A stretch of DNA of 35,523 bases. It comes from Campylobacteraceae bacterium. GTDB lineage: Bacteria > Campylobacterota > Campylobacteria > Campylobacterales > Sulfurovaceae. Position 1 is the first letter of the stretch. Every line of letters starts with the position of its first letter. The stretch is from the NCBI GenBank assembly GCA_027076905.1, contig JALTGP010000065.1, positions 1 through 35,523 on the forward strand, given 5' to 3'. Made by a program: the position numbers and the translations under genes. This document shows, in pieces, positions 25,411 through 31,364 of this stretch. A model generated the notes under the pieces. The model was not told the DNA's origin and made no database searches. It worked only from the letters and a program-made list of their open reading frames with translations.

Positions 25411-26972
25411 GAGTTGTAATAGATAAGGATGACGTTGATATTCTTATCCCGTGTGAGGGAACCTATCCCTATGTCAGAGGTGGGGTCTCTTCATGGATAG
25501 CACAGCTGATCACAGGAATGCCCCAATACCGTTTTGGCATCGTTTTTATTGGAAGCATTCAAGCCGATTATTCCCCAAAGCCTCTATTTGAATTTCCCGA
25601 CAACTTAGTCTTTATGGTAGAGCTTTTTATGTTTGAAGAGGAGGAAAAACCTCGTATCAAAGCCAAAAATGGAGAGGTTCAAGATTTTAAAACCTTGGAG
25701 AAACTTCACGATTGGTTCAAGAGTAGCGATAAAACTTTTGAGTTTCCCAAAGAGGTTCAAAAATTAGATTTTTATCTCAATAAAGCAGATGAAACTACCT
25801 TTTTATACAGCCGAGAGGCATGGTACTATATTAATAATAAAAATGAGGAGAACTGTTCTGAAATCTCTTTTTTAGACTATTTTTGGTCAGTAAGAAGTAT
25901 CCATATTCCTATCTGGAAGATGGCAAAACTTGCAAAGTTCTTAAAAGATAAAGGACGAATTATTCACTCTCCCTCTACAGGATATTCAGGGTTTCTATCT
26001 ACACTTATCTCTTATGATACAGGTAAACCTTTTATTTTAACCGAACATGGTATCTATACAAAAGAGCGTAAAATTGACCTTATTTCAAGCTCCTTTAATC
26101 TATACAAAAAACTAGATTTATTTCGAGAATCTGCCGAGGACAATTACATTCAAAGTATGTGGGTAAAGTTTTTTGAGGGAATTGGAAAAATGGCCTATAA
26201 TCGTGCCAATCCTATTTTGTCTCTTTTTTCGGTGGCAAAAGAGACACAAATAGTGTATGGGGCAGAGCGTGAACTCTGTACAGTTATTCCAAATGGTGTT
26301 GATATTAAACGACTTGGAGCAACCTTGCAACATCGTCCTAAAGATATCCCAAAGGTTATTACCCTTATTGGACGGGTGGTTTCCATTAAAGACATTAAAA
26401 CCTTTATTAGAGCCATTAGGGTCACTGCCAACGTGATACCTGAAGTGGAAGCATGGATAGTCGGTCCCGATGATGAGGAGTTGGAGTATGCTGAAGAGTG
26501 TCGAGACCTCATCGAGATACTTGAAGTTAAAGAGAATATTAAATTTTTAGGATTTCAAGATATTAGTAAAATTTTACCTCAAAGTGGACTTCAGACACTG
26601 ACCTCCATTAGTGAGGGGATGCCATTGGTAATTTTAGAAGGATTTGCAGCAGGTGTGCCGTGTGTGAGTACCGATGTGGGGTCATGTAAAGAGCTTATCT
26701 ATGGAGGAGAACAAAAAGGAGACAAAGAGCTGGGAAAAGCAGGGGTTATCTGTCAAATTGCCAATGTCAAACAGCTCTCGGATGCTTATATTGCACTTTT
26801 TAGTGATGAAGATAGATGGTATGAAGCACAAAGGATTGCCCTAGAGAGGGTCAATAGATTTTATACCCAAGAGATATTTTTGGACAACTATAAAAAGGTC
26901 TATGAGGAGACTTTTGAAGCATTAGAAAATAAATTAGAAAGTCAATTCAAAAAGCAAGAGGAAAATAGTTAA
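25407..26972 (+). CDS. pelF: PelF, Pel polymerising glycosyltransferase (GT4)
   Basis: Cytosolic GT4 enzyme that polymerises the Pel backbone from a UDP-sugar, in Pseudomonas UDP-GalNAc. 521 residues from the ATG at 25407. Motifs: PCEGTYPYVRGGVSSWIAQL at the N-terminus, diagnostic for PelF; LTEHGIYTKERKID; IPNGVDI; LIGRVVSIKDIKTFIRA; and the E-x7-E motif SEGMPLVILEG with Glu403 and Glu411, followed by AAGVPCVSTDVGSCKELI. I chose 25407 because it makes an ATGA overlap with pelE and GGAGGAG lies directly before it; the ATG at 25395 is an alternative that adds four residues. Overlaps pelG by one base. Confidence 0.95.
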   Translation: MRVVIDKDDVDILIPCEGTYPYVRGGVSSWIAQLITGMPQYRFGIVFIGSIQADYSPKPLFEFPDNLVFMVELFMFEEEEKPRIKAKNGEVQDFKTLEKLHDWFKSSDKTFEFPKEVQKLDFYLNKADETTFLYSREAWYYINNKNEENCSEISFLDYFWSVRSIHIPIWKMAKLAKFLKDKGRIIHSPSTGYSGFLSTLISYDTGKPFILTEHGIYTKERKIDLISSSFNLYKKLDLFRESAEDNYIQSMWVKFFEGIGKMAYNRANPILSLFSVAKETQIVYGAERELCTVIPNGVDIKRLGATLQHRPKDIPKVITLIGRVVSIKDIKTFIRAIRVTANVIPEVEAWIVGPDDEELEYAEECRDLIEILEVKENIKFLGFQDISKILPQSGLQTLTSISEGMPLVILEGFAAGVPCVSTDVGSCKELIYGGEQKGDKELGKAGVICQIANVKQLSDAYIALFSDEDRWYEAQRIALERVNRFYTQEIFLDNYKKVYEETFEALENKLESQFKKQEENS

Positions 26973-28372
26973 TGGCAGGAATAGGATTTGAACTTAATAA
27001 GATTCTCAAAGAAAGGTCTATCTCAGCTGTTATAAAAACATTTGGATATTCAGCTATTTTAAGTTCGGGTCCATGGGTTATCTCCATGATTATCATCTTG
27101 GCAATTGGACTTAGTAATGTTTACTTTTTTCAGGATGGAACTCCCAAAGAGACCATGCTACAAGCCTCGGTAACCTATGTCTCTGCATTGGCATTAAGCT
27201 CTGTCTTTACAGGGTTTTTTCAACTTCCCTTTACGCGATTTATTGCGGATAGAATCTACGAGGGTCGTTTTTATCTGGTCTTGCCCAATTTCTTAGGGAT
27301 GCTTCTTGTCACTATTGGTACAGGTTTTTTTATAGCTCTTGTTTTGGCAATGTTTCTCTTTGAGACACAAAGTAACCTCTTTATTCTACTCTACACAGCA
27401 CTTTTCGTAGTACTCTCCTGTGTCTGGATGGCAAATATTTTAGCAGCGAGTTTAAAACTCTACAAGCACGTCATTATCTTCTATCTCTTAGGATATATCA
27501 CAATTTATATCTCCTCAATGTTTTTAAAAGAGCAGGAGCTTATTGGATTGCTTATCTCCTTTATTATTGGGAACAGTATCCTTTTTATTTTATTATTTTT
27601 GGGGATTATCTACTACTACCCATCTTTTAATAAAAATAATAAAAAATTTATTCGTTTTGATATGTTCAAGCAGAACTATGGAAAGTTTTACTGGAAACTG
27701 GCATGGTCGGGAATGCTATATAATATCGCCATTTGGATAGATAAAGTCATCTTTTGGTTCTCTCCACTTGTTGGATACATGGTCATTGACAAGCTTCATG
27801 CCTCTATGGTGTATGATTTTCCTATCTTTTTAGCCTACCTCTCGATTATCCCTGGTATGGCTATCTTCTTCTTTCGACTGGAGGTTGATTTTGCAAAATC
27901 CTATGAATACTTCTACCGTGCCATTAACAAGCACGGCACACTCCGACAGATAAAACGTCACAAACAGGGCATGATAGATGCGGTAAAGAGAAGTATTCAT
28001 GAGGTACTCTTTGTCCAAGGTATTTTTAATATATTTCTCTTTTTGGGGGCAGAGCAACTCTTTGAGTTACTGCTTTTACCCAAACTATATCTGCCTCTTT
28101 TTTATGTTGACGTTATAGGGGTACAATTACAGTTAGGATTCATGTCTATTTTGGCATTTTTATACTACCTTGACCGACAAAAAGAGGCACTCTACTATAC
28201 CCTCTTTTTTGTCTTAATCAACGCTGTTTTAACATGGATTAGTATTCAACTCGGTCCTTATTTTTATGGGTATGGCTACAGCATTACCCTACTTATTTTA
28301 TTTGTTTCTAGTATATTAACACTCAATAGAATTTTACAGGAGTTGGATTATGAGACCTTTATGTTGCAGTAA
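26972..28372 (+). CDS. pelG: PelG, inner-membrane Pel transporter (MOP superfamily)
   Basis: A 466-residue polytopic protein with about 12 hydrophobic helices that, with PelD and PelE, moves the nascent Pel chain across the inner membrane. The N-terminus MAGIGFELNKILKERSISAV is the family signature; further motifs are SSGPWVISM, LPFTRFIADRIYE, the central KLAWSGMLYNIAIWIDKVIF and SIIPGMAIFFFRLEVDFA. Pseudomonas PelG is of similar size. The start codon overlaps the pelF stop (TAATG). Near its 3' end an AGGAG followed by ATG at 28350 opens the next frame, so pelA translation could be coupled to it. Its last residues are regular; the palindromic repeats begin 15 bases after its stop. Confidence 0.95.
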   Translation: MAGIGFELNKILKERSISAVIKTFGYSAILSSGPWVISMIIILAIGLSNVYFFQDGTPKETMLQASVTYVSALALSSVFTGFFQLPFTRFIADRIYEGRFYLVLPNFLGMLLVTIGTGFFIALVLAMFLFETQSNLFILLYTALFVVLSCVWMANILAASLKLYKHVIIFYLLGYITIYISSMFLKEQELIGLLISFIIGNSILFILLFLGIIYYYPSFNKNNKKFIRFDMFKQNYGKFYWKLAWSGMLYNIAIWIDKVIFWFSPLVGYMVIDKLHASMVYDFPIFLAYLSIIPGMAIFFFRLEVDFAKSYEYFYRAINKHGTLRQIKRHKQGMIDAVKRSIHEVLFVQGIFNIFLFLGAEQLFELLLLPKLYLPLFYVDVIGVQLQLGFMSILAFLYYLDRQKEALYYTLFFVLINAVLTWISIQLGPYFYGYGYSITLLILFVSSILTLNRILQELDYETFMLQ

Positions 28373-31364
28373 AATAACAGAGCTATTTGGAAACGGAGGC
28401 TTTCGCCCCGAACAATGGAGTCAAAGCCATCCTATTCTAAATCTTTTAAGATATCTATTAGACTTCTTGCAAAACTCTTTGGAATCGGAGACTTTAGTCC
28501 CGAACAAAATGAGGCTAAAGCCATCGGTTCCTAGTTTTGCAAGATATTTATTGATAACCGTGCTATTTCTAGCAACAACGTTAATGGCTAATGAACGTTA
28601 CGCGTTTATTTATAGCAAAAATATAGATGATACCTTTATAAATTTCTATGACAAAGTTATTGTCGAAGCGGACGCGATTGATAATATCTATGCCATTCGT
28701 CACCCTAAAAAGATGGTTGCCTATGTGAGTGTGGGTGAGATAGAGCCGTGGAGAAAAACCAAAACTAAATATAAGAAATCATGGGTTATCTCAAAAAACA
28801 AAACATGGAACTCGTTGGTTGCTGATTTAGAAAAAAAGGCGTATCAGGAGTTTATCTTTGAACGTCTGGAGTCACTTTATAAAAAAGGGTATAGAAACTT
28901 TTTTTTAGATACTATGGATGCGTATCATGTGACAGCAAAAGAGAAAAAACTTTTTAAGAGACAACAAAAAGCACTTATCTCCTTTATCCATAAACTACAT
29001 CAAAAATATCCTGATGCAAAAATTATTATGAACCGTGGATTTGAGCTTTTAAAAGAGGTTCATAATGAGATAGATGCCGTGGTGGCAGAGAGTCTGCTTA
29101 GTCGTTATGACCATGCAAAAAAAGAGTATCTTGAAGTTCCAAAATCCGATAGGGAGTGGCTTCTTGATAGATTTGAAGAGGCAAAGAGGTATGGACTAGA
29201 GGTTATCTCTATTGATTATACGAATAAGAGTACAAAAGAGAGACGTGAAATTGCCAAAAAGATAAAAAAACTAGGAGTTATTCCTTATGTAACCGATGGA
29301 CTTTTACAAGAACAAGGAGAGTGTGAAATAGAGAGGGTAAGAAGAGATGTTTTAATCTTATTTAACTCTTCAATGTTCAAAGATAACAATGCTGTCTATT
29401 CAGATGTACATCTTTTAGCCTCTATGCCATTAGAGTATTGGGGATATATACCTATATTATATGATATCTCTACCAAAGAGCTACCCAAGCGTGTAGAGGA
29501 TAGATATCACTCTGTTATTGTTTGGAGTGAGGGGGCAACAAAAAACAATGAAAAACTATACACTTGGGCAAAATCTCTAAAAGAGAAACAGATTAAAATA
29601 CTATTTTTAAATAGTTTTGTATTTAAGCCAACCCCTACAAGACTCAAAACATTTGGACTTAGTACAAAGGAGAACAGTAATGGTTTTATAGATAAAGTAG
29701 CCATAGAGTACAGACCACCCTATAAAGCATATGAGGTGTCTGCTTCTATTGAGTATGAGGATGAGTTGATTTTGGCAAAGGGTGCTAAAGAGGTGATAAC
29801 AACACACTATAAAGATGGTCAAAAGAGTATGCCCATTGCCATTACTCCTTGGGGGGGATATGCACTCAATGGTGCTTTTTTAGAGAGTATCGTACATGAA
29901 AACTTTTGGACAATCAACCCTTTTATTTTTTTTAAAGATGCACTAAGACTCGATAGCATTCCTGTACCTGACCCCACCACAGAAGCGGGTAGACGAATCC
30001 TATTTATACATATTGATGGTGATGGTTTTATGGAGATAGTGCGTACCGCACCCAAACAGTTGGCATCTGAATTTCTACTAGAACATATCTATAAAAAATA
30101 TCAAGTTCCTCAAACCATCTCATTGGTACAAGGAGAGGTAGATAGCATTGGACTATATCCCAAACTTAGTCCACGTATGAAAAAAATTGCCAGAGAGATT
30201 TATAAAGTCCCTTGGATAGAACCTGCTAGTCACACCCTCTCTCACCCATTTTTTTGGGGTCAAGCTGATAAAAATTTAGAGAAAAAGAAAAATACTTTGG
30301 AATCTGAGACTTTAATCCCAAATAAAGCAAGTCTAAAGCCATCGGTTCCGAAAGATAAAAATATAAGTAAACAATCAGAGGGACACTACCACCTGCCAAT
30401 TCCAAACTATGAGTTTGACCTAAAAAGTGAAACCAAAGATAGTGTTGATTTTGTACTCGGGTTAGCACCTGCATCAAAACAGAAAGAGAGAGTTATTTTT
30501 TGGAGTGGTGATTGTCTGCCAACACGTGTAGTATTGGCATATTGTGAAAGAGATGGTATTTTGGGAATGAACGGGGGAGATACCACCATTAAAAAGAGTG
30601 ACCCATGGCTTAGTCATCTTGCACCTTTTGGGGTACAAAGAGAGGAGTATTGGCAAATCTATACAGGTCAACAGAATGAAAATGTCTATACCAATGATTG
30701 GCTAGGCCCATTTTGGGGATATCGTGATGCCATTGAGACCTTTAAAATAACAGAAGAGCCATACCGAATAAAACCCATTAATATCTATTATCACTTCTAT
30801 TCAGGATCTAAACTCGCCTCCTTTAAAGCCCTAGATGAGGTCTACTCATGGGCAATAGCACAAAAAACCTCAAAACTCTACGCCTCCCAATATATCAAAA
30901 AAGGACGGGGTTTTTATCAAACCTCTATTGCCAAAACCAAAGGTGGTTTTGAAATTAGAAACGCTGGATTTTTACGCACGGTTCGTTTTGATAAGAAGAT
31001 TTATGTTGATATGAAAAAAAGTATTGGCGTGGCAGGATACAACCATCATAAAAACCAAAAGAATAGATACACTACCTATGTAACGTTAGATAGCCGTAAA
31101 AACCATTTTGTTCTCTTAAGTGAGTATCCACAAAATAGCCCCCACCTTATAGATTCTAACGGGTGGGTAGTCACTGCCGAGCAAGAGCAGAATATCTATA
31201 AGTTTGTATTAAAATCCAACATACCCCTAGAGGCAAATTTTTTTATGCCAACAATGTGTAGACTGTTACCTATAGAGGGGTTTAAGATAGACATTTTAGA
31301 TAAAAAAGTATCTATTTTTACAGATAATAAAAATGGAGTATCCCTTGTATTTGAGTGTCAATAA
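28350..31364 (+). CDS. pelA: PelA, periplasmic Pel hydrolase/deacetylase with in-frame palindromic-element peptides
   Basis: Bifunctional periplasmic enzyme: glycoside hydrolase and N-deacetylase of Pel. In this numbering a signal peptide lies at about 62-80 (RYLLITVLFLATTLMA-NE), the hydrolase domain at about 82-320 (YVSVGEIEPWR, FFLDTMDAY, VVAESLL with Glu247 as probable catalytic acid), a Rossmann-like middle, then the deacetylase with Asp556/Asp558 in HIDGDGF, His628/His632 in SHTLSHPF, and WSGDCLP and GMNGGDT. Start is ambiguous. ATG 28350 has AGGAG seven bases upstream and overlaps pelG, but puts 60 residues before the signal peptide. ATG 28509 gives 951 residues, close to Pseudomonas PelA, but lacks a ribosome site and lies within a palindromic repeat. 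Residues 650-667 are encoded by another repeat copy. Confidence 0.92.
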   Translation: MRPLCCSKITELFGNGGFRPEQWSQSHPILNLLRYLLDFLQNSLESETLVPNKMRLKPSVPSFARYLLITVLFLATTLMANERYAFIYSKNIDDTFINFYDKVIVEADAIDNIYAIRHPKKMVAYVSVGEIEPWRKTKTKYKKSWVISKNKTWNSLVADLEKKAYQEFIFERLESLYKKGYRNFFLDTMDAYHVTAKEKKLFKRQQKALISFIHKLHQKYPDAKIIMNRGFELLKEVHNEIDAVVAESLLSRYDHAKKEYLEVPKSDREWLLDRFEEAKRYGLEVISIDYTNKSTKERREIAKKIKKLGVIPYVTDGLLQEQGECEIERVRRDVLILFNSSMFKDNNAVYSDVHLLASMPLEYWGYIPILYDISTKELPKRVEDRYHSVIVWSEGATKNNEKLYTWAKSLKEKQIKILFLNSFVFKPTPTRLKTFGLSTKENSNGFIDKVAIEYRPPYKAYEVSASIEYEDELILAKGAKEVITTHYKDGQKSMPIAITPWGGYALNGAFLESIVHENFWTINPFIFFKDALRLDSIPVPDPTTEAGRRILFIHIDGDGFMEIVRTAPKQLASEFLLEHIYKKYQVPQTISLVQGEVDSIGLYPKLSPRMKKIAREIYKVPWIEPASHTLSHPFFWGQADKNLEKKKNTLESETLIPNKASLKPSVPKDKNISKQSEGHYHLPIPNYEFDLKSETKDSVDFVLGLAPASKQKERVIFWSGDCLPTRVVLAYCERDGILGMNGGDTTIKKSDPWLSHLAPFGVQREEYWQIYTGQQNENVYTNDWLGPFWGYRDAIETFKITEEPYRIKPINIYYHFYSGSKLASFKALDEVYSWAIAQKTSKLYASQYIKKGRGFYQTSIAKTKGGFEIRNAGFLRTVRFDKKIYVDMKKSIGVAGYNHHKNQKNRYTTYVTLDSRKNHFVLLSEYPQNSPHLIDSNGWVVTAEQEQNIYKFVLKSNIPLEANFFMPTMCRLLPIEGFKIDILDKKVSIFTDNKNGVSLVFECQ
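28387..28432 (+). repeat. Palindromic REP-like element, copy 1 (pelG-pelA junction)
   Basis: Begins TTGGAAACGGAGGCTTTCGC, then CCCGAAC as loop, and a right arm AGTCAAAGCCATCC. It aligns with copies 2 and 3 over both arms, with a slightly shorter loop and right end. It lies 15 bases after the pelG stop. In the long pelA frame it is read in a different register from copies 2 and 3, which suggests it is not under selection as peptide. Confidence 0.75.
28466..28543 (+). repeat. Palindromic REP-like element, copy 2, with extended hairpin and internal ATG
   Basis: The 51-base core (28481-28531) has arms GGAATCGGAGACTTTAGTCC and GGCTAAAGCCATCGGTTCC that pair at 17 of 19 positions counting three G-U pairs. 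Directly outside are perfect 11-base inverted flanks, CTTGCAAAACT (28466-28476) and AGTTTTGCAAG (28533-28543), so the whole unit can form a hairpin of nearly 30 pairs. The loop contains the ATG at 28509, in frame with pelA. The core is read in the pelA frame as LESETLVPNKMRLKPSVP. Confidence 0.85.
30299..30349 (+). repeat. Palindromic REP-like element, copy 3, in frame inside pelA
   Basis: Same length as the core of copy 2 and identical at 45 of 53 positions, counting the preceding TT of TTGG. It keeps the GGAATC...ATCGGTTCC ends and the CTTTA/CTAAAGCC arms, with more mismatches near the loop. It encodes LESETLIPNKASLKPSVP (PelA 650-667) in the same reading frame as copy 2, in a linker between the SHTLSHPFFW catalytic segment and the conserved-looking YHLPIPNYEFDL segment of the deacetylase domain. 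Confidence 0.9.

Follow-up and report, generated by a model that had tools for sequence, protein, structure and literature searches.

The window, a stretch of 35,523 nucleotides, corresponds to contig C65 of a draft genome of 2.37 Mb that is 85% complete (G000). It carries pel genes in the order pelG, pelA and a pelB-like gene; the two genes beside pelA have open frames with matches to their respective families. Relatives collected by means of PelA are Sulfurovum-like and other metagenome-assembled genomes of the Campylobacterota, which points to a host of the same kind, a deep-sea-type Sulfurovum relative. The features at the junction of pelG and pelA, together with an internal feature of pelA, are compiled in Table 1.

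Table 1 Features of the pelG-pelA region of the window.
Feature	Position	Strand	Remarks
pelG (466 aa)	26972..28372	+	Pfam PelG, 4.4e-124; end falls within the pelA frame
AGGAG, Shine-Dalgarno-like	28338..28342	+	7 nt upstream of ATG 28350; same place in relatives
pelA ORF (1004 aa), carrying in-frame insertions at the N-terminus and internally	28350..31364	+	Glyco_hydro_114, 1.5e-24; solved PelA 9cgy, 7.7e-119
Copy 1, older decayed relative of the element	28378..28456 (limits approximate)	+	Core matched at 78% over 51 nt; right arm decayed
Target duplication ATT, left of copy 2	28457..28459	+	Also right flank of copy 1
Copy 2, a complete palindromic element of 90 bp	28460..28549	+	ATT on both sides
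Copy 2 left arm AGACTTCTTGCAAAACT, terminal inverted repeat	28460..28476	+	Same repeat ends an IS5-family element
Copy 2 hairpin core, encodes SLESETLVPNKMRLKPSVP in the pelA frame	28477..28532	+	
Candidate internal ATG	28509..28511	+	Variant of the element's usual ACG
Copy 2 right arm, left arm inverted	28533..28549	-	
PelA signal peptide, hydrophobic core LLITVLFLATTLMA	28548..28589	+	Alignment with relatives
Target duplication ATT, right of copy 2	28550..28552	+	
Core-only third copy within the PelA deacetylase region (NTLESETLIPNKASLKPSVP)	30289..30349	+	In frame, same frame as copy 2; absent from the initial annotation

The initial annotation had described a repeat doublet with a long hairpin, located after the pelG stop and ahead of the PelA signal peptide. 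Both copies indeed lie there in direct orientation, sharing a 38-nt block of 82% identity and an 18-nt block at spacings of 92 and 94. Its reading of the doublet as a mobile element was also correct, as judged from the element family, the arms and the target duplications. The inverted flanks of copy 2 are perfect, as had been noted, over 12 bp (28465-28476 and 28533-28544) rather than 11. The RNA of copy 2 (96 nt) folds with -35.5 kcal/mol (z -6.5; none of 200 shuffles did as well), and copy 1 by itself folds weakly (z -2.3). The A of ATG 28509 falls within the 7-nt loop (28503-28509), which agrees with the earlier placement of this codon. Moreover, the 53 codons from 28350 to 28508 contain no stop; only 3% of dinucleotide shuffles of 28353-28508 are stop-free, so that calling this somewhat unexpected was fair.

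Aligned copies define a 90-bp unit, in which 17-bp arms (AGACTTCTTGCAAAACT, inverted at the far end) surround a core of ~56 bp, CTTTGGAATCGGAGACTTTAGTCCCGAACAAAACGAGGCTAAAGCCATCGGTTCCT, that forms a hairpin on its own. Armless cores exist as well, sharply delimited among the matches listed, and further palindromes are nested within the core of some copies. We counted 41 element matches in the draft genome and up to ~100 in congeners. A search with the arm, allowing up to 3 mismatches, returned 72 matches in the draft genome against 15 for a reversed control. The element was matched at E 1e-3 in 35 of 100 relatives, mostly of the same genus, and a model of its sense-frame peptide gave matches in 20 of 34 congeneric genomes. 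As to a possible vehicle, no match was obtained in plasmids, phages or a viral collection, the last searched by exact pattern only. Copies are mostly intergenic, both in the draft genome, where 3 of 43 hit rows (four copies) lie inside ORFs of at least 200 aa, and in the congener G029. In a census of the latter that scored 40 of 212 first-look candidates, 15 of 47 sites were covered by an ORF of at least 100 aa, several of them by upstream or short frames only, and 32 lay in none. Other small repeats accompany the element. A second palindromic insert, ending in GGAAT...ATTCC and bordered by TTAG on either side, is present at two loci of the draft genome (L022:162-411 and L034:632-769), nested in both at the same point of the element core, and a third repeat, GGCTACCCCAAGGAAATAAACACACAAATAG, is present in L027 and L139.

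To characterize the insertion sites, we compared the triplet before the AGAC end with the triplet after the GTCT end. Direct repeats of the form ANT flanked 14 of 18 complete copies in the draft genome (shuffled mean 6.4, P 5e-5), a nineteenth (L009) being left out as its right end was unreadable; as the ANT rule was chosen after the flanks had been seen, this count describes the data against a control and does not amount to a prediction. A strict 4-bp duplication performed less well than the 3-bp rule (7/19, P 0.004). An IS630 (DDE_3) partner, sought because of the flanking TA, was absent from the draft genome, and ANT fits IS5 better. In the congener G032, we found a 903-bp element that has the same inverted ends, AGACATCTTGCAAAACT and AGACTTCTTGCAAAACT, and is flanked by ACT on both sides. 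Its two consecutive frames match positions 2-135 (1.6e-12) and 148-283 (4.5e-33) of an IS5-family transposase model, each half scoring under the curated cut-off of the full model. Partial transposase matches with similar ends were also detected in G020. ANT duplications are typical of this IS group, and a tentative assignment to the ISL2 group follows from this feature. No DDE_Tnp_1 transposase was matched in the draft genome at its 85% completeness; a partner in the same genome is not a strict requirement for an old MITE family.

The ACT/ACT flanks in G032 served as one prediction-like test of the ANT rule. The other came from the one exact empty site at the DNA level, with which ATT is consistent. 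Here, a 638-aa gene of G033 (L200) carries the element between MKKFI and FILLSILF, and its orthologs in G030 and G021 (87-88% identical) read ATGAAAAAGTTTATT without interruption, the net gain in G033 being 93 nt. For intergenic copies of the draft genome, four sites were searched with both flanks, and at only one of them (L016) did the two flanks lie near each other in relatives. At this site (L016:308-393), the place is taken by another long palindrome, GGTGTAGTCGGGGACTACACCCTAC, in three relatives (L255, L256 and L258, from G033, G021 and G030), and is empty in G032. A direct duplication of 18 bp, TCTACATTTyCATATAAAA, brackets a left-arm-only copy in an exporter gene of G029 (L186, C354:471-542), in contrast to the 3-bp duplications of other copies. 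Taken together, the element is best read as a MITE, i.e. a miniature, transposase-less transposon, with IS5-type ends around a REP-like hairpin core, and its ends and flanks point to an IS5 transposase that would move it. The core-only copies, including the third copy in pelA, lack arms, and their movement is unexplained by this IS5 model.

We thus interpret the doublet, with a probability of roughly 0.72, as two insertions of a non-autonomous MITE into the 5' end of pelA, with the frame retained and translation from 28350. Copy 1 would have entered pelA in frame and shed its own stop through small changes; copy 2 would then have landed at the right edge of this older copy, duplicating ATT and adding 93 nt. 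Both insertions would fall downstream of the start codon in the pelG overlap and upstream of the signal-peptide core, with the pelA frame kept. The frame stays open because 90 bp and a 3-bp duplication amount to 93 nt, exactly 31 codons, and the sense frame has no stop. In the consensus of the element, 2 of 6 frames are stop-free, one per strand.

Of 39 pelA loci, 21 relative rows entered an alignment of PelA, rows on the minus strand of the locus or below 600 aa being dropped. Some rows represent the same organism from two collections, leaving 17 distinct starts. None of the 21 contains either insertion, and no empty pelA site was found at the DNA level in close relatives. In most relatives of the same genus, the pelA frame opens in the last pelG codons and proceeds directly into a hydrophobic stretch, e.g. 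MKLSCCSKIVFLFSLLFSSVMAEERYAF in L072. This opening coincides with the position of ATG 28350 and lies downstream of a conserved Shine-Dalgarno-like AGGAG, which the initial annotation had correctly placed ahead of this codon. In the window, the start at 28350 is followed by ~57 extra codons and then by LLITVLFLATTLMANERYAF. When copy 2 and one ATT were removed in silico, the frame remained open from 28350 with copy 1 kept, and no in-frame ATG was present between 28350 and the signal peptide. Thus, before copy 2 arrived, either copy 1 was already read through or a weak downstream TTG or GTG was used.

Among the 17 distinct starts of relatives, seven (L073, L075, L084, L130, L131, L132 and L137) have AUC at the position of ATG 28350. 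These seven pelA genes contain no in-frame ATG, GTG or TTG from the upstream stop to the end of the signal peptide; the AUC is often preceded by AUU, and AGGAG or GGGAG lies upstream. By its sequence context, this suggests that AUC may be a conserved pelA start imposed by the overlap with the end of PelG (..DYQTFMLQ).

Two starts had been considered in the initial annotation, and the translated extension from 28350 emerged as the better supported, ATG 28509 less so. Translation probably begins at 28350, which would give PelA an extension of ~57 residues before its signal peptide. The main point against this start is that 66 residues then precede the hydrophobic core, which is unusual for a signal peptide, and a long N-terminal insertion in this place is awkward. 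If the element instead supplied the start through ATG 28509 in its hairpin loop, the upstream frame would be a leftover and the signal peptide would comprise 27 residues (MRLKPSVPSFARYLLITVLFLATTLMA), more ordinary in length and with a basic N-region; AAA directly precedes this ATG. We nevertheless consider this rather unlikely, as ATG 28509 has no Shine-Dalgarno sequence within 15 nt and is buried in the stable hairpin. The same ATG recurs in an unrelated copy between genes, with 100% identity over 87 bp, and ATG at this site is a variant of the element, seen in 4 of 44 alignments from the draft genome versus ACG in 23. Furthermore, the ancestral start at 28350 and its AGGAG are intact and in frame, and two other loci (L179 and L200) share the order of start codon, element and hydrophobic stretch with no ATG in their elements. 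All three element jumps into pelA left its reading frame unbroken, and the inserts are therefore most likely translated as extra protein.

Three insertions could also mean relaxed constraint on a decaying gene with a non-functional product, and pelA does hold two of the three coding insertion places in the census of the draft genome. Such decay appears very unlikely to us, since the frame of 1004 aa is intact, the hydrolase and deacetylase regions align to solved PelA and to relatives (up to 65% identity), including HIDGDGF and HTLSHPFFW, and the genes beside pelA are open and match their families. The pelA gene might be weakly constrained, yet its frame and conserved motifs persist. The alignment to solved PelA breaks at the inserted peptide; an AlphaFold model of PelA (mean pLDDT 49.5) was too poor to place the internal insertion in the fold. 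A different function was envisaged in the initial annotation, namely that folding of the hairpin controls the synthase and hydrolase genes separately. A regulatory RNA that sets expression of pelA-pelB apart from the synthase genes would agree with the very stable fold of copy 2, its location between functional blocks of the pel operon and the mostly intergenic position of copies elsewhere. However, covariation is nearly absent, with compensatory change in 1 of 21 pairs across 24 copies, no T-run follows the stem by reading, and the hairpin is translated under its best reading. The same element is present inside unrelated coding regions as well, and relatives have no structure at the pelG-pelA junction. 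The proposed separate control thus went unsupported, and we regard a regulatory role as highly improbable. A search against Rfam structured RNAs returned only mir-548, whose 22 bits are far under the curated threshold of 90, and an Rfam identity was rejected. As the simplest reading, we infer that the insertions represent selfish DNA that is tolerated and not a means of regulation.

The element also occurs in frame in other genes, inside proteins of known families or at their ends. Hosts of sense-frame copies, as typed by Pfam, include a tRNA methyltransferase-like protein, a copper P-type ATPase, a flavoprotein resembling fumarate reductase/L-aspartate oxidase, RNase H, HrpB, CoaBC (with the DFP domain split in two), HsdR, a polysaccharide exporter, a phage-tail protein, CysNC, a PAP2 protein and a CotH protein. 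The opposite frame is read in a GntR-aminotransferase, a penicillin-binding protein, an MMPL exporter, a hexapeptide transferase and the gene of L200. Because these hosts were selected for long frames, their number is not a rate. In alignments to solved homologs, the inserted peptide appears as extra sequence, most clearly in HrpB, and as a break in CoaBC. At one locus of G020 (L199:1217-2452, C20), a copy links UPF0227 and HD-domain proteins in a single 412-aa frame, possibly a gene fusion.

Most known in-frame palindromic repeats come from Rickettsia and certain REP-rich species. Rickettsia palindromic elements (RPE) are described as short palindromes inserted in frame in many unrelated conserved genes (PMC10969869, PMC3733652). 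Our element resembles them in being an in-frame palindrome in conserved genes with a recurring peptide of 20-30 residues. It differs in phylum, probably in sequence, and in using two frames, and its long form has IS5-type inverted ends, a 3-bp duplication and a candidate autonomous partner. GTAG/CGTC-tagged REPs and REP dimers are mostly intergenic hairpins, although some lie in genes and others within longer palindromes (Di Nocera et al. 2013, PMC3733652). This 2013 survey names Sulfurovum sp. NBC37-1 as carrying both types and describes CGTC repeats as apparently without a dedicated transposase (PMC3733652). The present element shares with these REPs the mostly intergenic hairpin with some copies in genes and some in longer palindromes; it seems to have no clear tag at the published spacing, and its outer palindrome is a transposon end. 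By eye, GACG (CGTC on the other strand) lies at the core centre in many copies, two bases off the stem. A RAYT partner was dismissed: the single Y1_Tnp gene (G000:C22:1906-2232; L068, L144) has no element copy within 10 kb on its contig. ISL2-group elements of 914-916 bp with two frames have been described (PMC3196728). Our element is like IS5-family (ISL2-like) MITEs in its inverted ends, its AT-rich 3-bp duplication and its partner of ~900 bp with two overlapping frames, but unlike them its interior is not derived from the partner, and its hairpin also occurs alone.

A search of the open-licence literature retrieved no account of IS5-ended elements lying in frame in Campylobacterota. What appears to be new is thus a Campylobacterota form of RPE-like protein-coding palindromes with a candidate mobiliser; in-frame palindromes and intragenic REPs are already in print. 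Because this protein-coding palindrome shares its ends and target duplication with a definite IS family, its movement becomes testable. For annotation, our findings are a warning, as the start and length of pelA in the window, as well as many enzymes of relatives, include transposon-derived peptides. It is possible, though we offer the idea tentatively, that the element evolved to be harmless when translated, with a frame-keeping length and a stop-free frame per strand, so that genes absorb it in either orientation. If true, this would be a transposon with coding DNA as a habitat and an identified IS5-type engine, and pelA would be an example of its landing between a start codon and a signal peptide.
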